A DNA stretch of 64,000 bases from an uncultured Sphingomonas sp. (GTDB taxonomy: Bacteria > Pseudomonadota > Alphaproteobacteria > Sphingomonadales > Sphingomonadaceae), in assembly GCF_913062585.1 (NCBI RefSeq), contig NZ_CAJXWX010000023.1, forward strand, positions 1 through 64,000, written 5' to 3'. The translations under genes were made by a program, and so were the position numbers. Below, one piece after another: positions 22,984-50,131 of the stretch (position 1 is the stretch's first letter; every line of letters begins with the position of its first letter). The notes below the pieces were generated by a model. It did not search any database. It worked only from the letters and a program-made list of their open reading frames with translations, and was not told where the DNA came from.

Positions 22984-24456
22984 CTACACCTCGGGCGTCG
23001 CGGTTTCGCTGTCCTGTCGGGCGCGTTGGCGGCGGCGCATCGTGCGCATGACGTCGTCGCCTTCGGTCCGTTGCCGGGCCGCGGTCGCAGGCGCGCGGAA
23101 GGACAGGACGGTCGTGCCGTCGGTGCCATATTGCGCCAGCGCGGCGACAAGGAACAGGATCGTGCTGACGATGCCGTCGCGCTCGAACAGGCCGGACTCG
23201 GTGACGTTGTGGCCGATGCAGAACAACAGCATCGCCGCGATCAGCCCGCCCTGGCCCGGCGCCAGCCGGTTGCTCGCCAGCAGCCGCGCGAGCGGCCAGG
23301 CGGCGACCGCCAGCACCATCAGGACGACGCCGGGCACACCCACCGCGACCAGCTGGTCCAGATAGCCCGAATGGCCCACCGTGATCTGGCGGACATAGCC
23401 GATGCCATATTGGAAGATCGGGCTGGTCGCGTCGATGTTCCAGAAGGATCCGAATCCCGCGCCCAGCATCGGGTGGTCGCTCGCATATTTCAGCAGCGCC
23501 GACCAGATCAGCCCCCGCCCGGTAAAGGCCGAGGGGTTGAGCACGGTGGTCACGAACATGTCCTGATAGGCGCTGGTCAGCCCCCCGATCACCGCGGTCG
23601 CCACCGCCAGGATCGGCATCAGATAGGCACGCAGCCGAAAATTGACCGTCTCGAACACATAGCCGCCGAGCACCGCCATGACCAACATGCCCATCGAGGT
23701 CTTGGATTGCGAACGATAGAGGAAATAGCCCGCCGCCAGCACGACGAACAGCCGCAGCAGGCCCGGCAGGCGCCGGGCGTCGAACAGGAACATGATGATG
23801 CACAGCGCGCAGACCGCGCCGGCGAAATTCTTGTGGCCCAGGAAACCGCGCCAGTTGCCGACCAGCGCGGTCGGCATCTGCGTGTCGACCAGCAGGTGGA
23901 TGCCGGTCGCGGGCAGAAGGACCACGACGCCGTAGGAGATCAGGACGGTCGCCAGCAGCGTATAGCGCAGCGTCTCCGTCGTGGTGCGATAGCCGCCCGC
24001 GCGGACCAGGTTGAACACCATCCAGGCGATCAGGTTGGTCAGGATCAGGCGGCGCACGGCGATGCTGGGGTCGAGCGCCCAGCCGATGCTGAGCCAGCAC
24101 CATCCGAAAGCGATCAGGAGCGGCCCGCTGAGCGCGATCGCGTTGCGCCGGTTCAGCGTGGGCCAGGTGGCGTAGAGCGAGAAGGCCAGGATCAGCAGAT
24201 AGCCGATCTGGCGCACCGCATTGCCCTCCGCCGAAATATTGCCGCCGCTGATCGTCATCAGCGGGCCGAGCATGACCATGGCGAGCAGGGCGACCAGTGC
24301 GGCGCGGATGGCGCCGTCGCGCGGCGGCGCGGCGGCATAGGTCGCATCGGCCGACGCGCCGCTCAGCCGACGCAGCCACTCATCGACACGCACCGAACCC
24401 CCGGGCGCCGGACGGGCCAAGGCCGATGGGAGCAGGGGGTCGGAAGAAGAGGGCAA
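22984..24456 (-). CDS. O-antigen ligase/ExoQ-type polymerase (A)
   Basis: Polytopic membrane protein (about 490 aa, roughly twelve helices) of the Wzy/O-antigen ligase (Wzy_C) family, expected to polymerise or transfer lipid-linked repeat units at the periplasmic face. The signature is GFLGHKNFAGAV, and the late periplasmic loop has GAGFGSFWNID...GHSGYLD. It is close to the protein at 36057-37493. The frame is open to 24636, but a start there would overlap the upstream gene by 110 bases. TTG 24456, with GAGG seven bases upstream, is preferred; the exact start is uncertain. It is the last gene of the first minus-strand EPS run. Confidence 0.85.
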   Translation of the reverse strand: MPSSSDPLLPSALARPAPGGSVRVDEWLRRLSGASADATYAAAPPRDGAIRAALVALLAMVMLGPLMTISGGNISAEGNAVRQIGYLLILAFSLYATWPTLNRRNAIALSGPLLIAFGWCWLSIGWALDPSIAVRRLILTNLIAWMVFNLVRAGGYRTTTETLRYTLLATVLISYGVVVLLPATGIHLLVDTQMPTALVGNWRGFLGHKNFAGAVCALCIIMFLFDARRLPGLLRLFVVLAAGYFLYRSQSKTSMGMLVMAVLGGYVFETVNFRLRAYLMPILAVATAVIGGLTSAYQDMFVTTVLNPSAFTGRGLIWSALLKYASDHPMLGAGFGSFWNIDATSPIFQYGIGYVRQITVGHSGYLDQLVAVGVPGVVLMVLAVAAWPLARLLASNRLAPGQGGLIAAMLLFCIGHNVTESGLFERDGIVSTILFLVAALAQYGTDGTTVLSFRAPATAARQRTEGDDVMRTMRRRQRARQDSETATPEV

Positions 24457-33258: not shown

Positions 33259-33840
33259 TCATGCGGCGTCGAACCGGATATGCCGCGGGCGGAGCGGCCG
33301 GGCCGGGTTGCCCGCCGCGATGGTCCAGGCGGCGATGTCGCGCATCGCCACCGCGCGCGCGCCCAGCACCGCACCGTCGCCGATCGTCACGCCCGGGCCG
33401 ACAAAGGCCTCTGCCGCCACCCAGGCGCGGGTGCCGATGACGATCGGGCGGGTATGAAGCTGGAAGGCCGGGCTTTCGACGTCATGCGTGCCCGCGCACA
33501 GATGCGCGCCCTGCGACACGATCGCATAGGCGCCCAGCCGGATCGGCGCCATCGCATAGATGGTCGTGCGCGGCCCGATCACCGAATGATCCTCCATGGT
33601 CAGATTGGCGGGCGACCAGATCCGCGCGCTGCCATAGACGATCGCGGTCGGCGCGATCCGGGCGCCGAACAAACGCAGGATCAGGCGGCGCCAGCCGCGC
33701 AGCGGCGGCGGCGTCCAGGCGGCGAGCAACCCCCAGGTGACGATGAAGGCCAGCCGGTAGAGCCGATTGCGCCGTGAAAAGCTGGCCCCGCCGTCCCAGA
33801 TGGTCTTGTCCCGCGTTTCCAGCGGCGTACCGGCTACCAT
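33259..33840 (-). CDS. WcaF-like hexapeptide acetyltransferase
   Basis: A 193-aa left-handed beta-helix acetyltransferase of the colanic-acid WcaF/NodL type, expected to O-acetylate a sugar of the repeat unit with acetyl-CoA. It shows an N-terminal Trp/Arg-rich segment (SRRNRLYRLAFIVTWGLLAAW), hexapeptide repeats (IAPTAIVYGSARIWSPANLTMEDHSVIGP, VVIG-type turns), the catalytic His region CAGTHDVESPAF and GAVAMRDI-like final coils. The start is uncertain: MVAGTPLE at 33840 is used. It appears to be the first gene of the minus-strand run. Confidence 0.83.
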   Translation of the reverse strand: MVAGTPLETRDKTIWDGGASFSRRNRLYRLAFIVTWGLLAAWTPPPLRGWRRLILRLFGARIAPTAIVYGSARIWSPANLTMEDHSVIGPRTTIYAMAPIRLGAYAIVSQGAHLCAGTHDVESPAFQLHTRPIVIGTRAWVAAEAFVGPGVTIGDGAVLGARAVAMRDIAAWTIAAGNPARPLRPRHIRFDAA

Positions 33841-34149
33841 GATCGTGCGATGCTCCCGGCCGCGACCGGGGGCGGCCGGGCGGCGGCGTACCGGTCCGAA
33901 GACGCCCTGCGCCTTCGTCGGATCGCTGCCCGCCCCTACCCCCCGGTTTCCACGGTGACGAAAGGGATCGCGTGCGGGCCGGACCCTGTCAACCGACGGC
34001 AGGACGCGGCTGTCCCTGAATGAGGCGGCCTGCCCATCCGGTCGGCCTTCGTCATTTTGTTGGATCGGCCAGACGGTCATGCGCTTGTCGTGTTGGAAAT
34101 CCGGTTATAGATGGTTGCGCTAGAACAAATGGCGAACAAGGGGCGCGAT
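33841..34149. other. divergent intergenic region
   Basis: About 309 bases between the WcaF-like gene (minus) and the phage-tail-like pair (plus). No gene was recognised. Promoters for both directions are expected here; AT-richer sequence at 34050-34115 precedes the plus-strand genes, but no clear hexamers were found. Confidence 0.4.
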
Positions 34150-34578
34150 ATGGCTGGCCTGATCGATCAACCCGCGGAATATGTACCGCTTCACGCGCTC
34201 GCCTTCGGGGCGCTCGGCACGCCCGGCGTCGTGGTGGATGCGGGCAACCCGCTGCCCGTACGCGTCGCGGGCACGGCGTCTCCGGCGACACCGCTGGCCG
34301 GCGTGGCGACCGGCGCGGCGATCCTGGGGCCGTTTCTGCCCGCGCTGTCCTGGCCGATCTGGGTCAGCCTGTCCGGCGCATGGACGGGGCAGGTACAATT
34401 GCTGCGTTCGGTCGATGGCGGTGCGACGAAGCTGCCGCTGACCGTCGCGGGACAGCCCTGGGCCAGCTATACCGCGCCGGCCAACGAGATCGCCGTCGAG
34501 GAGACGGTTGCGGGCGCCAGCTATTATCTGTCGGTCGCGCTGACCGGCGGCACGCTGACCTATCGGGTGGCGCAATGA
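34150..34578 (+). CDS. phage-tail-like hypothetical protein
   Basis: A 142-aa protein without signal peptide or membrane helix, rich in small residues and beta-strand patterns (VVVDAGNPLPVRVAG, WPIWVSLSGAWTGQVQLLRSVDGGATKLPLTVAGQPWASYTA, YYLSVALTGGTLTYRVAQ). This wording recalls small proteins encoded next to tail-fibre hydrolases in phages of alphaproteobacteria; that is from memory, not a search. AAGGGGCG precedes ATG 34150; ATG 34129 and 34111 are alternatives. It overlaps the next gene (ATGA). Confidence 0.65.
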   Translation: MAGLIDQPAEYVPLHALAFGALGTPGVVVDAGNPLPVRVAGTASPATPLAGVATGAAILGPFLPALSWPIWVSLSGAWTGQVQLLRSVDGGATKLPLTVAGQPWASYTAPANEIAVEETVAGASYYLSVALTGGTLTYRVAQ

Positions 34579-36020
34579 GCGCGGACGTCATCGCACGCGG
34601 GCTGGTGGCGCAGGCGCGACAGAGCGCCGCGACCGACCTGGCGCTGACCCGGTTGCGCGGGGCGATGCGCCAGGCGCGGGACGGCGCCGTCTTCGCCCAG
34701 CCGCCGCTGATCGCACCGCCTGCCTGGAGCGCCTCCACCGCCTATGCCAAGGGGCAGATGGTGGCCGCCAACGGCAATTGCTATGTCGCGGTGACGGCCG
34801 GGACGAGCGCATCGAGCGGCGCCGGCCCCGCCGCCCGGACGGTCAATGGCGGCGGCGCGATCGCGGATGGCGGTGTGCTCTGGACCTATTTCGGGCCGGT
34901 GCGGATCACCGTGAACGACGCCGCTGCGCCGACCCTGACCCAGAGCGCGACCGACCCGGCCTTCGGCATCACTATCACCTACAAGGCCTATCCGCAATCG
35001 TTCGCGCTCTACGGCGCCTATGGCTCGAGTTTCGACGGGGCAAACCGGCTGATCCCGAACGGCTTCGGTGCGAAGCCGGGCCAGCCCGGACCGGCGGCGG
35101 GGCGGCGGATCGAATTCTGTTCGGACGGCGCGAACGTGATGGTCAGTCTGGCCGGATCGAATGCCGCCAGCTTCTGCCGCGTGGCGGTCGACCAATATGA
35201 CGGCCGGGGGCTTCGCCTCGTGACGCCGGGATCGCTGCTCAGCGCGTCGCCCTTCATCCGGCTGGGCTGGGCGACCGCGGAGAAGCGTCGTTACGTCGTC
35301 TTTCTGAGTACGGCCAATTACGATGTCTTTGCGGGCGTCCAGGTCGATAATGGCGCGACCGTCTGGGCGCCCGTGGTCGCCGATCCGCTGCGCGCCGTGC
35401 TGATTGCGGACAGTATCGTGGCGGGATCGGGCTTCGGGCCGTTCCTGGCGGGCAACGACATCGCCACGCGACTGGCGCTGGGCCTGGGCATCGCCGACAT
35501 CTGGGGTTTCGCGGCTGGCGGCACGGGTGAGTTGAACCCCGGCGCGGCGGGGCTGTCCACCTTCGTGCAGCGACTGCCCGAGGCGATGGCGCTGAAGCCC
35601 GATCTGTGGCTGATTCTGGGGTCGTGCAATGATCGCAGCGCCAATGGCTATACGGGAGCGGCGCTGAGCGCGCAGGTGACCGCGACGATGCAGGCGATTC
35701 GCAGCGGCGGCGCGACCGCGCCGATCATTCGCGGCGGGGCGTGGCCGATCGCAGACAGCGCCGACATCGCGGCGTGCGAGGCGGCGATCAAGGCGGGCTA
35801 TGACGCCTTCGCCGCGACCGATCCCTATCCGCATGGCTATGTGCCCGTCAGCGCCGCGACCCCGCCGATCATCACGCGCGGCTATAATAATGGCGGCGGC
35901 GTGCTGATGAGCAATGTGAACCAGTATCTGGGCGGTGACGGTCATCCCACCGACTGGGGCATCGCCCATGCCGCGAACCGCCTGGTCGAGGGGATTGCGG
36001 GCGCGCCGGGCACGGCATGA
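34575..36020 (+). CDS. SGNH/GDSL hydrolase with phage-tail-like N-terminus
   Basis: A 481-aa protein. Residues about 50-110 (PAWSASTAYAKGQMVAANGNCYVAVTAG...GGVLWTYFG) form a carbohydrate-binding-like module common in phage tail proteins. After a beta region, the SGNH fold shows block I LIADSIVAGSGFG, block III LILGSCND and block V GDGHPTDWG, so Ser, Asn and Asp/His are in place. Likely activity is an esterase or deacetylase on a polysaccharide. It has no signal peptide, which is odd for an EPS enzyme and fits a phage origin. It converges on the polymerase gene with a 36-base gap. Confidence 0.8.
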   Translation: MSADVIARGLVAQARQSAATDLALTRLRGAMRQARDGAVFAQPPLIAPPAWSASTAYAKGQMVAANGNCYVAVTAGTSASSGAGPAARTVNGGGAIADGGVLWTYFGPVRITVNDAAAPTLTQSATDPAFGITITYKAYPQSFALYGAYGSSFDGANRLIPNGFGAKPGQPGPAAGRRIEFCSDGANVMVSLAGSNAASFCRVAVDQYDGRGLRLVTPGSLLSASPFIRLGWATAEKRRYVVFLSTANYDVFAGVQVDNGATVWAPVVADPLRAVLIADSIVAGSGFGPFLAGNDIATRLALGLGIADIWGFAAGGTGELNPGAAGLSTFVQRLPEAMALKPDLWLILGSCNDRSANGYTGAALSAQVTATMQAIRSGGATAPIIRGGAWPIADSADIAACEAAIKAGYDAFAATDPYPHGYVPVSAATPPIITRGYNNGGGVLMSNVNQYLGGDGHPTDWGIAHAANRLVEGIAGAPGTA

Positions 36021-36056: not shown

Positions 36057-37493
36057 TCAGCGCCGCGTGGGCCGGTCAAGCGTCGCCCGGCCGTTGCGCG
36101 AACGGCGGCGCAGGATTGGGTCGATGGTGGGGACGGTTTCGTCCCGGCGCACCGCCCGGGGGCGGGCCGACATGCCGTTGCGGCGCAACAGCGCCGCGAT
36201 CAGGCCCAGCGCCATCATCGCGAAGACCTGCGGCACCTGGTCGCCATCGAACAGGCTGGTCTCGGCCATGTTGTTCAGGAGGAAGAAGAGCAGCAGGGCA
36301 AAGCATAGTGCCCCCGTCCTCTTGTCCGCCTTCATCGCCTTGGCCAGCAGGTCGAGCGGCCAGGCGATGACCGCGAACAGCGCGATCAACAGGCCGGGCA
36401 GGCCGATCTGCACCGCCAGGTCCAGATAGCCGTTATGCCCCTGGGTCACGCCGCTCCACCGGCTGGCGTCGCGGATCATGCCCGGCGCGCCGGGATCGGC
36501 CGACGACCAGAAGGCGCCGAAACCCGCCCCCGACCAGGGATGCGACAGATAGGACAGGACCATCGGCTGCCAGATCTCGCCCCGGTTCGACCAGAGCGCG
36601 GGATTGGCGACCAGCTGTACGAACCAGTCGCCGCGCAGGGTGAGGAGGATCGGAAGGATCGCGGTCGTTGCCCAGGCGAGGGGACCGATCCGCCGGAACC
36701 ATGTCGCCTCGTCTTGATCGCCCTTGCGCGCGATCGCATCGCCGTGACGGTGCAGCACGAAGGCGAGGATCAGGGCCAGGGCCGTGCCGATCATCGAGGC
36801 GCGCGAGCTGGTCAGCCCCAGGAACACCAGCGCGGCGAGCGCCACGCCGTAGCGCAGCCAGCGGGTCCGGACCGTGCCGTACAGCGCGAACATCAGCACG
36901 GTGATGCCCGATACCGTGCCCGCGATATTCTTGTGCCCCATGATCCCGCGCCAGGGGTTGTTCTGGTCGACGCCGTAATTGTGGATGCCCAGCCACGGAT
37001 CGACCAGGACGGTGGCGTAATCGACGACCAGGGCGATCAGCAGCATCGCCTGGATCAGGCGGATCGACCGCCGCGCGCCCAGCCGGTCGGTGCACAGGAA
37101 ACAGGTCCACACGACGATGGCGGTCAGCGCCCATTTGGCCAGCGACGTGGCGGGCGTCACCGACCATAACAGGCTCAGGCCTGCCCAGCCCATGGTGAGG
37201 AGGATGGGCAGGGGCAACACCATCCATTGCCGCTTGCCCGGCCCGGTCCACAGGGTAATCGCGGTCAGCGCCAGCAATCCGGCATAGGCCATCTGCCGCG
37301 CGGTACTGGTCACGCCGTGGTCGAACGCGCCGGTCAGGGTCAGCAGGGGGCGGGTCAGCGTCAGGCCGAACAGGATCGCGAGCGCGACCTGCAACAGGAT
37401 CTTTTCCAGCCGGTCGTGCACCGGGCGTCCCGCCGGCCCGGCACCGATAGTGCGGTCCGGGGCGTCGGCTTCGGTGGGGGACGGCGCGGTCAT
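36057..37493 (-). CDS. O-antigen ligase/ExoQ-type polymerase (C)
   Basis: Membrane protein of 478 aa with about twelve helices. It shares with polymerase A the signature GIMGHKNIAGTV, SSRASMIGTALALIL, and the loop GAGFGAFWSSADPG...GHNGYLDLAVQIGLPGLL. It is expected to be the Wzy polymerase for the fucose-containing repeat made by the same operon. A much longer open frame (to 38615) runs upstream antisense-free through the transferase gene in another frame; MTAPSPTEAD at 37493 is taken as the start, 17 bases after that gene. The C-terminus is Arg-rich. Confidence 0.87.
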   Translation of the reverse strand: MTAPSPTEADAPDRTIGAGPAGRPVHDRLEKILLQVALAILFGLTLTRPLLTLTGAFDHGVTSTARQMAYAGLLALTAITLWTGPGKRQWMVLPLPILLTMGWAGLSLLWSVTPATSLAKWALTAIVVWTCFLCTDRLGARRSIRLIQAMLLIALVVDYATVLVDPWLGIHNYGVDQNNPWRGIMGHKNIAGTVSGITVLMFALYGTVRTRWLRYGVALAALVFLGLTSSRASMIGTALALILAFVLHRHGDAIARKGDQDEATWFRRIGPLAWATTAILPILLTLRGDWFVQLVANPALWSNRGEIWQPMVLSYLSHPWSGAGFGAFWSSADPGAPGMIRDASRWSGVTQGHNGYLDLAVQIGLPGLLIALFAVIAWPLDLLAKAMKADKRTGALCFALLLFFLLNNMAETSLFDGDQVPQVFAMMALGLIAALLRRNGMSARPRAVRRDETVPTIDPILRRRSRNGRATLDRPTRR

Positions 37494-47536: not shown

Positions 47537-50131
47537 TCAAGCCTGCGGCACGCGTCCTATCCGAACAGTATCGACAAACCATTTCACCGGCTGGCCCTCG
47601 CCCGCCGTCAGCACGACCCCGATCCGCTGTGCGACGCACCCCTGCGGCACCATCACCGCGCCCGACAAAGCGCGCCAATCGCGGCCGCCGGGGAAGGGCA
47701 GGGTCATGACCGGCGTCCCGTCGGCGCACAGCAGGACGAGCGCGGCGCGGTTGGCCGTGCCGTCCGCCATCGGCGCGTCCGTCATGTCGCCACCCCCCCG
47801 GACCCGCACCGCGATCCGGTAGCGTCCCGGCGTCAGCAGCAGCGGTTGTTGAAGCGCCATGCCGCTCGTCAGCCCATCGGCGGCGATTCGTACCCCCTTG
47901 CCCTCGGTACCGCGCTCGTCGGACGTGACATGCACCCCGGCCAGCGGCGGCGCGGACCAGCCATAGGGAATGGCATAGTCGGGCACGGGATCGGGCAGCG
48001 CCTCGAACCCGCCATCCTCGATCAGGCCGCGCCCACCGCTCGCGAGCCAGACGGCGCGGGCGCCGGCCATATCGCCATGCTCGGCCAGCTTCGCGCGCGC
48101 GCGGGCGGTCTCGGCGGGCGTCGCGGCCAGGCCCGCGCTCGCCAGTGCGCGCAGGAAGCCGGTCAGGCGGGCAGGATCGGCGACACCGTCATCGGCCAGC
48201 ATCGCCAGGAATCCGCCGCGCCAGCCCGGCCGGTCGTCCAGCCGCTCGACCAGCGCCGCCGGACCGCCGGGCAGGCGATAGACGGCGAGCAAGCCCTGCA
48301 TCGCCGCCTCGGGCGACTCGCGGCGCCGGAGCATCGCGTCGATCTGTTGCGCGGCCAGCGTCGCATCGCCGTTGGTCAGCGCGGTCTGCGCCAGCCAGCG
48401 CGCGATCAGCGTATCCTGCCAGCCCAGCCCGGCCCCGATGCGCAGCAGCGCCGCGCCCCGCTTCGGCGCACCGTTCAGCAGATCGGCATAGCCCTGCGCC
48501 CGCACCGCCCCGGCATCCAGCGGCGAAATGGCGAGCGCGCGGGTGGCGGCGGCGCGCATTGCGGTGCCGCCATGGCCCGCGCCCGTCGCATCGGCCAGCG
48601 CGGTCCAGGCCGCCGACGACCAGGGCGCGACCCGGGTGGCGGCCAGCGGCTGGCGACGGGCGACCAGCGCCTGGGCCAGGCCGTCCCCGGTCGCGACCAG
48701 GCCGATCAGCAGCGCGACCGCGCCGCTCGCATAGAGGGCGATCCGGCCGCCCTGCGCACGCACGCTCGGCGCGCGTCCGGTCATCGCGATGACGGCGACC
48801 ATCGCGCCCGCGAGTCCCGCGATGGCGGGCATGCGCAGCGGATAGTCGACCAGCGAGAATAGCAGGATCATCGCCAAAGCGGCGACCGCGGCGACCAGGG
48901 GCTTGCGCTCCGTATCGCGCACAGTGCGTCGCCACGCCCGGGCGATCATGACGATCAGGACGACCAGCCCGGCGATCATCAGCAGCGCGCCCGCCAGCCC
49001 CGCCTCCATCAGCCATTCCAGCGCGTCGTTATGCGCATGGTTGACGGTCAGCGGCCCCACCTCGGCCAGCGGCTCGACGGTGCGATAGACGCGGTCGAAG
49101 CTGCCCAGCCCGGTCCCCCAGGGAAAGGTGCCGCGCACGACGAACCAGCTATTGTCCCAATATTGGTAGCGCGCCTCGGTCCCGATCCCCGCGAAACGCG
49201 CCAGGATCCGCTGCATCAGGTCGGTGCGCGACAGAATGAGGGCGCCCAGGCCATAGCCCAGCGCCAACCCCAGCGCCGAACGCCCGGCGCGCCGCCCGCC
49301 CGCGATCAGCCAGCCCGCCGCCAGCAGGACCAGCGGCAACAGGAGGAGCGCCGTGCGCGACCGGGTCGCCAACACGCCGAGCGTCAGAAAGGCGATCAGC
49401 GCGGCGCCGATCGCGCGCCGCCGCCCGAACAGGTCCGGGATCGCCGCGATCGCGATGGCGGCCAGCAGGAAGGTCGCCTGATGGTTGCGATTGACGAACA
49501 GGCCGATGCCGTCGCCCTGATGCGCGCTGTCATAGAGAAGCGGCGCGTCGCCCGCCCCGAGGCCCGCCTGCACCATCCCGATCGCGGCCCCGATCGCGGC
49601 GATGATGACGATCAGGCGCAGCGCGGCCATGCGGTCGGCGGCGGAAACCAGCGCCATGCCGGTCATCGCCGCAAAGGGCACCGCCAGCGCAGGCAGCATC
49701 GCCAACGTCGCATCGGGCGTCAGGCTCAGCGGACGCCACGGTGCCGCCTGGGCCAGCAGCGCGTCGATCGCCACGACCACCGCGCGGCCGGGCAAGGCGT
49801 GCCACAGGCCGGGGGGCAGGGGGACGATCTGGAGCAGGATCAGCAGCACGGTCGCGCCGAACAGGATGATCGGCGCGCGCAACGCCCGCGCCGTCTCCGC
49901 CTGGCGGGCCAGTTGCGAACCGGCGATGGCGGCGACGATCAGCGCCAGCCACTGGCCGATCATCGCGATCAGCGGATAGCTGCGCCCCGCGCCGCCGCCG
50001 ATCCCCAGCGCGAGAAGCAGGGCAAGCGCGAACAGCCGCAGCCGCGCCTCGCGACCGAATAGCACCATCGACAGGATCGGCGTCGGACGTTCGGACCGAT
50101 GGAAACCACGCCTGATGCTGCGACCGCTCAT
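47537..50131 (-). CDS. O-antigen polymerase-like protein with long C-terminal domain (D)
   Basis: Large protein of about 864 aa. The N-terminal half has about twelve helices with the Wzy/ligase signature FVNRNHQATFLLA, SRTALLLLPLVLL and GTGLGSFDRVYR...NHAHNDALEWLMEAGL. After the last helix (near residue 480) come Ala-rich helical repeats that look TPR-like, then a beta-rich C-terminal module (GGFEALPDP...RYRIAVRVRGGG...) resembling a carbohydrate-binding sandwich. This is roughly twice the usual polymerase length. ATG 50131 or ATG 50068 may be the start. It heads the operon polymerase D-wza-wzc. Confidence 0.82.
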   Translation of the reverse strand: MSGRSIRRGFHRSERPTPILSMVLFGREARLRLFALALLLALGIGGGAGRSYPLIAMIGQWLALIVAAIAGSQLARQAETARALRAPIILFGATVLLILLQIVPLPPGLWHALPGRAVVVAIDALLAQAAPWRPLSLTPDATLAMLPALAVPFAAMTGMALVSAADRMAALRLIVIIAAIGAAIGMVQAGLGAGDAPLLYDSAHQGDGIGLFVNRNHQATFLLAAIAIAAIPDLFGRRRAIGAALIAFLTLGVLATRSRTALLLLPLVLLAAGWLIAGGRRAGRSALGLALGYGLGALILSRTDLMQRILARFAGIGTEARYQYWDNSWFVVRGTFPWGTGLGSFDRVYRTVEPLAEVGPLTVNHAHNDALEWLMEAGLAGALLMIAGLVVLIVMIARAWRRTVRDTERKPLVAAVAALAMILLFSLVDYPLRMPAIAGLAGAMVAVIAMTGRAPSVRAQGGRIALYASGAVALLIGLVATGDGLAQALVARRQPLAATRVAPWSSAAWTALADATGAGHGGTAMRAAATRALAISPLDAGAVRAQGYADLLNGAPKRGAALLRIGAGLGWQDTLIARWLAQTALTNGDATLAAQQIDAMLRRRESPEAAMQGLLAVYRLPGGPAALVERLDDRPGWRGGFLAMLADDGVADPARLTGFLRALASAGLAATPAETARARAKLAEHGDMAGARAVWLASGGRGLIEDGGFEALPDPVPDYAIPYGWSAPPLAGVHVTSDERGTEGKGVRIAADGLTSGMALQQPLLLTPGRYRIAVRVRGGGDMTDAPMADGTANRAALVLLCADGTPVMTLPFPGGRDWRALSGAVMVPQGCVAQRIGVVLTAGEGQPVKWFVDTVRIGRVPQA

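Follow-up and report, generated by a model that had tools for sequence, protein, structure and literature searches.

The gene pair described here, A and B, lies in a 64,000-nt stretch of DNA (the window) from contig NZ_CAJXWX010000023.1 (C23 in our numbering) of the 3.9-Mb genome of an uncultured Sphingomonas sp. Both genes are on the plus strand, amid minus-strand genes for exopolysaccharide (EPS) production, and both open reading frames were found where the initial annotation of this DNA had placed two overlapping genes, with A starting at 34150. Gene A (34150..34578) encodes a spike-base-like protein of 142 amino acids, and gene B (34575..36020) a predicted CE2-like SGNH esterase of 481 amino acids, which is a candidate fibre protein. 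The two genes overlap by 4 nt (ATGA), an arrangement seen in 12 of the 14 pairs measured. The reading frame of A is open from 34111 and offers candidate starts at 34111, 34129 and 34150; the last of these was preferred because of the conserved part of the protein and the purine-rich AAGGGG at 34138-34143, ahead of this start. Gene calls were made using a purpose-written codon-score script, not a standard caller, and some B starts were corrected. The pair is set among glycosyltransferase genes, and its flanks are EPS genes as judged by Pfam, not a phage structural region. By a hydropathy count, performed without a dedicated predictor, neither A nor B of the window starts with a hydrophobic segment resembling a signal peptide, which agrees with the earlier statement that a secretion signal is lacking.

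In protein B, the SGNH blocks are complete: S280, G316/G318, N352 and D455-x-H457 are all invariant in 13 aligned sequences including that of the window, and the complete triad that had been claimed is thus borne out. The codon of the predicted catalytic serine S280 is at 35412..35414, that of the predicted oxyanion-hole asparagine N352 at 35628..35630, and the codons of D455 and H457, assigned to the predicted triad, are within 35937..35945, all on the plus strand. Window B scored 27.8 bits against the Pfam family Lipase_GDSL_2 (gathering cut-off 32.9) and 21.1 bits against CBM_5_12 (cut-off 26.2). The former cut-off was passed by relatives at loci L020 (49.5), L019 (33.7) and L052 (56), while a prophage copy (21.4) and others fell below it (L numbers denote loci and G numbers genomes throughout). 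The carbohydrate-binding-like module of the initial annotation can be seen as a CBM_5_12-like stretch at residues 50-78 (34722..34808, plus strand), albeit with a score under the Pfam cut-off; similar stretches occur in phage-like regions too and, as weak matches, in head-decoration proteins. A PHROG search gave no match for A and only weak ones for B, at this same stretch, so the support for the tail-fibre-like wording first used for the pair comes from a homologous prophage gene, described below, and not from PHROG.

The structure model of B (mean predicted local distance difference test score, pLDDT, 62.8) comprises a long N-terminal helix, followed by a beta domain and then the SGNH domain. 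The beta and SGNH domains (residues 131-481; 34965..36017, plus strand) together have a CE2/SsfX3-like predicted fold, and VIA-align of the model gave Z scores of 22.1 for SsfX3 and 18.0-20.6 for CE2 esterases over approximately 300 residues. The likeness is thus one of a beta-sandwich joined to an SGNH fold, although sequence identity to these proteins is only 14-17%. Solved CE2 enzymes are mostly plant-polysaccharide deacetylases. From this moderate-confidence model, B would be expected to act as an esterase. Among viral models, those closest to the B fold were of a phage tail fibre and of SGNH esterases from phages. The phage SGNH proteins compared were the prophage gene L051_12 (IMGVR_UViG_2900186868_000002), that of Caulobacter phage DMCA_024, a protein of Bradyrhizobium phage BDU-MI-1, and the tail fibre of Clavibacter phage CN1A. 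Like window B they combine a beta domain with an SGNH domain, and the prophage gene has the CBM-like part as well; unlike window B they are encoded in phages, and the prophage copy lacks the N-terminal segment typical of EPS loci.

Protein A comprises an N-terminal tag (approximately residues 1-45; 34150..34284, plus strand) and a beta-sandwich/jelly-roll C-terminal domain, as judged from an alignment with 13 EPS-locus homologues, profiles of the N- and C-terminal parts, and a structure model with its fold matches. A profile of the first 45 residues was trained on the window and 11 other Sphingomonas copies and searched against 952 called proteins. Its top matches outside the training set were 7/7 EPS-locus A proteins (E 3e-8 to 1.5e-3; one was counted twice, via an overlapping locus), and it matched none of three phage A proteins. 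A second profile, built from the remainder of A, found those three phage proteins (from L051, a Microcystis phage and L122) together with the A proteins of L054 and L059, and matched none of five short A proteins. These results indicate an N-terminus of A that is confined, in this set, to EPS loci, and a C-terminal domain of an exchangeable phage type. The model is confident only from around residue 45, and residues 46-142 form a beta-sandwich whose best fold matches are the Bacillus prophage proteins YomS (Z 10.9) and XepA (Z 10.5). This likeness is one of predicted fold in the C-terminal domain. YomS and XepA belong to lytic cassettes. The next matches, at Z 8-9, are a mixed list of a phage baseplate protein, a GOLD domain, a phage cement protein and a protease domain.

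Rather than being a one-off insertion, the pair turns up repeatedly in EPS loci of the family. A match to B was found in 16 of 295 genomes of the genus, including the window's own (12 full length, one broken in two and three partial), and in 2/149 genomes of the family, again including the window's own. A profile of B matched in 14/296 genomes of the order and 3/385 of the class, these last being the window's own and two that share the CBM-like stretch only. Nineteen EPS loci were assembled, every one of them found via B alone, and in 19/19 of these A lies directly upstream of B. They are the window, 11 other Sphingomonas loci, G424, and loci of six other genera (G027, G015, G037, G002, G132 and G032). 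Polysaccharide genes accompany the pair in all 19, identified by Pfam in the window and by homology to the window and to each other elsewhere. The gene beside A is of glycosyltransferase type in 18 loci; in the window it is a hexapeptide (LbH) acetyltransferase gene (33259..33840, minus strand; Pfam Hexapep) that has a homologue in 15 of the 18 other loci. The three loci without such a homologue include two whose stretches end at contig ends, and G027, where none was found in 33 kb. As the pair recurs in this way, a local insertion of the whole pair by a phage was rejected. The initial annotation's idea of a captured phage module survives in part, in that phage kinship (a prophage sister of B and a phage-type C-terminal domain in A) and an esterase-type fold were found, but local capture of the whole pair was not upheld.

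Several weaker matches fall outside this set. G461, G453, G740 and G685 have mainly the CBM-like stretch in common with B. The weak matches in G214, G215 and G376 were left out of the EPS set, those of G215 and G376 consisting of the CBM-like stretch only, in regions that look phage-like by eye, and the weak matches in G1103 and G1148 were left outside the loci examined. Plasmids gave distant SGNH genes only, from Streptomyces, Cupriavidus and Rhodococcus.

Comparison of the window with the 11 other Sphingomonas loci gave identities of 63-75% for the acetyltransferase and 50-58% for A, but only 33-37% for B. The polymerase and flippase of the window are not in common with those loci, and one more of its glycosyltransferases is common to four of the 11 (50-56%). 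When the other ten loci are compared to L020, the polymer genes, where present, are 59-84% identical and B is 71-77% identical. The body of B differs where the polymer genes differ and, though the independent cases are few, such a pattern in the sequences would fit a fibre body that is matched to the polymer.

The initial annotation had also raised the possibility of a remnant. An inert phage remnant is favoured by the phage kinship of the pair only, and we consider this reading very improbable indeed. Ratios of nonsynonymous to synonymous substitution (dN/dS, Nei-Gojobori) were calculated for eight pairs taken from among the other 11 Sphingomonas loci, the window not being included. In 8/8 pairs they fell within 0.09-0.26 (A) and 0.10-0.16 (B), similar to those of neighbouring EPS genes. 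In addition, B is broken in just one of the 19 loci, G424 (L031 1455-2863, G424:C66), where an internal stop and split frames were seen in a genome that has a GTA marker (GTA, gene transfer agent). In these relatives the pair is kept as a maintained function and is not a remnant. The window copy itself has no close relative suitable for dN/dS; against the prophage gene, window B gave dN 0.44 and dS 1.12, which is near saturation. The comparison of composition was not decisive on origin. At third codon positions A has a GC content of 0.80 and B one of 0.84, whereas 44 window genes average 0.861 (standard deviation 0.032), and by codon score A ranks second lowest and B 15th lowest among 46 genes, making B ordinary for the window and A low scoring.

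Phage copies of the pair do exist. A prophage in G600 (L051/L117/L118, G600:C5), on a contig listed in IMG/VR, carries an A-B pair directly after tail and endolysin-type genes. Its B is the closest relative that we found for window B, at 54% identity over 453 residues, compared to 33-40% for the EPS-locus copies, these being different measures. Homologues are thus not confined to EPS loci, and those that do lie in EPS loci show no signal peptide, so the proposal of a phage connection was not contradicted by the homology search. Phylogenetic analysis placed window B and prophage B as sisters with 100/100 support. In the first tree, a single clade of window B with 12 EPS copies (L019-L030) was rejected (p 5e-31). 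In a second tree, which included two more viral contigs and left out the five EPS-locus B proteins that had diverged most (L052, L053, L054, L056 and L059), the same 13 rows were again rejected as one clade (p 2e-44), as were the window with 11 Sphingomonas copies (p 3e-5) and, with the window removed, the 12 EPS copies (p 0.018). This last rejection arises because L019, of G027, groups with phage copies. The broken G424 gene was left out of the alignment (A1) and of the trees.

Window B is a mosaic. Its residues 1-16 (34575..34622, plus strand), a short stretch, are on average 65% identical to the 11 EPS copies, with a best value of 81%, and match the prophage copy at 6/16 positions; over residues 61-481, the individual blocks show 48-62% identity to the prophage and average identities of 24-50% to the EPS copies. 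The N-terminal segment is therefore of EPS type and the body of prophage type. To judge from these sequences, a more recent exchange with a phage may have involved the body of B only and, with an unrooted tree and thin phage sampling, may have run in either direction.

An opposite course of events, in which an old EPS-locus enzyme was adopted by phages as a tail or head fibre, would be consistent with the recurrence of EPS copies in the family and with the setting of the G600 prophage between genes that resemble, by eye and from one BLAST match, those for sugar-nucleotide enzymes. A dehydrogenase-like gene stands at the contig start, and epimerase- and dehydrogenase-like genes are on the other side; no tRNA was found in the flanking stretches. 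However, phages of distant hosts (Microcystis, Caulobacter and Bradyrhizobium) also contain domains of A and B, and phage copies sit on several branches of the unrooted tree. We therefore regard this course as unlikely. Database searches returned few phage relatives: window B gave three records in the phage collection, all partial and distant, and none in IMG/VR, where profiles of B and of A likewise gave none, and in the phage collection window A matched one Microcystis phage protein and L019 A none. On viral contig L123, B lies among structural-looking genes. At L080 9000-12139, in Kaistia hirudinis, two small phage-like genes, a B homologue and a second SGNH gene were seen in ordinary-looking surroundings.

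The same enzyme body being present in a prophage also bears on a protective role, in which a phage-derived pair alters or masks the EPS receptor and so blocks adsorption of phages that carry the same esterase. Consistent with this, an A-B-like pair on an IMG/VR contig (L122 7114-9359) has signal-peptide-like segments at the start of both proteins, as expected of a lysogenic-conversion pair, and its sequence makes a secreted lysogenic-conversion esterase possible there. The EPS-locus copies show no secretion signal, and the relatives are under ordinary purifying selection, unlike a fast-evolving defence gene. Exclusion of this kind seems to us quite improbable.

The closest known parallel is the head spike of the Rhodobacter capsulatus GTA (RcGTA). 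This spike comprises five copies of Rcc01079, with their N-termini on the capsid, and one Rcc01080 held to the base by its residues 2-10 (PMC7296036). The spike genes of R. capsulatus adjoin capsule genes (cluster rcc01081-86) and are co-regulated with them, and binding of the spike fibre to cells is greater when capsule is present (PMC10218006). Phages contain homologues of rcc01079 and rcc01080 (PMC8601537), and RcGTA-like clusters are carried by Sphingomonadales (PMC9765227). An RcGTA tailspike is reported to degrade biofilm (PMC13420450). The RcGTA spike genes GhsA/GhsB (Rcc01079/Rcc01080) resemble A-B in being consecutive, in encoding a small base and a fibre, in lying beside capsule genes and in being outside the head-tail cluster. 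In the window, a predicted beta-sandwich base is likewise followed by the ATGA-overlapping B, which would be the fibre. The fibres themselves differ: Rcc01080 has 325 residues and a lectin-like model, whereas window B is a 481-residue SGNH protein with a different start. A further difference is that A-B is only a candidate for carriage on a GTA. A literature search found no paper that names spike genes in sphingomonad EPS loci, which is no proof that none exists.

Sequence evidence for this parallel comes from NF048002, the NCBIfam model of the RcGTA spike base (Rcc01079 family). The A protein of L019 scored 32.4 bits (cut-off 28; E 8.5e-8), and those of L053 (24.1), L031 (20.0), L056 (19.9) and L052 (15.8) fell below the cut-off. 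The model thus reaches 5/5 short A proteins at E<=0.012, with one over the cut-off, so that five EPS-locus A proteins resemble the RcGTA base family. As controls, the Rhodobacter phages RcapNL and RcapMu gave 106 and 75 bits, and protein 29 of RcapNL is 39% identical to L019 A over 75 residues. In RcapMu (L125 36554-38182 and on), a tail-spike gene annotated DUF303, an acetylesterase-type domain, directly precedes the spike-base homologue and a fibre gene. No chain named as a GTA spike appeared among the PDB sequence matches or VIA-align rows for A, although kinship is not thereby excluded.

The genome of the window has a GTA-type head-tail cluster on contig C9, where the capsid (333 bits) and g12 of the Rcc01695 family (171 bits) pass their cut-offs. 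The stretch (L110/L111, G000:C9:33000-66000) carries terminase-, portal-, capsid-, tail- and megatron-type genes, those without a profile score having been recognised by eye. It cuts the megatron-type gene, the start of which scored 218 bits, the cut-off for the complete protein being 800. Pfam GTA_TIM (PF13547) matched nothing in this head-tail cluster, and was rejected as a GTA marker after giving 0/20 and then 1/149, below cut-off. Because the megatron-type gene is present here without PF13547, g12 and the capsid family PF05065 were used as markers instead. PF05065 was found in 15/20 genomes and was absent in G332, G295, G256, G015 and G002; g12 is in two pieces in G332 and G132 and partial in G236.

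Taken together, we consider it likely that A-B is a phage-type spike pair, and plausible that B acts as an esterase on the host's own EPS. That the host keeps this module matched to its own polymer, perhaps for use on its own GTA, is the explanation that we favour, with slightly less than even confidence. The mechanism would begin with A as a base, whose conserved N-terminus would dock on something constant in these bacteria and whose beta-sandwich head would bear B. The N-terminal helix of B would fix the fibre to A, and its CE2-like SGNH domain would bind the EPS made by the same locus and strip O-acetyl groups from it, for which the acetyltransferase next door is a possible source. On a change of polymer, B might exchange its body with receptor-binding genes of phages but keep its docking end. 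The most likely carrier would be the host's own GTA, as with the GhsA/GhsB head spikes that sit beside capsule genes; such carriage is possible, and is challenged by the presence of the pair in genomes without a GTA marker. In its fullest form, which we offer tentatively and hold to be doubtful, the proposal is that the enzymatic head spikes of the host's GTA are encoded in sphingomonad EPS loci, so that the fibre key and the polymer lock are co-inherited, transfer is limited to cells with the same EPS, and re-keying occurs by body swaps with prophage fibres, with the docking ends kept. We infer the contact between A and B, the docking, the re-keying and the GTA carriage.

A number of observations weigh against this explanation. 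NF048002 gave no score for A of the window, nor for A of L020, L051, L054 and L059. The fibre start with a Leu/Gly repeat, as in Rcc01080, is absent from window B, which begins MSADVIARGLVAQAR. Just 16/295 genomes of the genus have any match to B, and the confidence of the B model is moderate. In G534 and G026, and also in G624 as judged by shared neighbours, B-related SGNH genes lie outside EPS loci and phages, without A. Further, g12 had no match in five of the 19 EPS pair-bearing genomes (G256, G295, G385, G015 and G002), and in 51 Sphingomonas genomes without a B match it was missing from 12 and partial or weak in 5 of the remaining 39. By these counts, carrying the pair is not associated with having a GTA. 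The pair in L021/L022 (G332/G295), where there is no intact g12, is as constrained as elsewhere; loss of the GTA in these two genomes may be recent. Finally, a B motif, AR[GA][LMIV]..A, within the first 45 residues is found in the 14 EPS-locus B proteins whose partner A is long, in the B of the prophage (where it reads ARAL) and in the gene that follows the Microcystis phage base. The intact B proteins whose A is GhsA-like do not have it (4/4), and neither does L122, which has an A with the long-A type domain. Its base rate is 22/789 proteins, eight of which are neither B-type nor the gene after the Microcystis phage base. A profile of this B segment reached L059 only at E 0.066 and did not list L054, leaving the motif unsupported outside the training set. 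As the profile was unsupportive and the copies are related, we did not rely on the motif.

Some of these same points would suit a stand-alone EPS-editing enzyme of phage ancestry, with no particle involved, that trims O-acetyl groups from cytoplasmic lipid-linked repeats or from polymer after lysis. Its credit lies in the intact pairs of genomes with no g12 match, constrained in one such genome pair, in the operon-like position of the pair behind a same-strand glycosyltransferase gene in the 11 other Sphingomonas loci, and in the frequent acetyltransferase homologue (15/18 other loci). What it does not account for is the spike-base-like A, the phage modular build and the docking-like N-termini, and for action outside the cell no signal peptide was seen. 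We think such an enzyme possible, if somewhat doubtful.

Were the spike explanation correct, these loci would provide a second, enzyme-bearing case of spike genes tied to polysaccharide loci, outside Rhodobacter. This would explain how phage-like particles of the host keep up with a changing surface polymer, and kin-restricted gene exchange through a shared EPS would become a testable idea. Even without GTA carriage, the pair would be a phage-type esterase module that recurs in Sphingomonas EPS loci, where it may set the acetylation of the polymer.

On the other side of the pair from the acetyltransferase gene, the window has a Wzy_C-type gene (36057-37493, minus strand). It is one of three Wzy_C (polymerase/ligase) genes in the window, the others lying at 22984-24393 and 47537-50131, which suggests that more than one polysaccharide system is encoded there.

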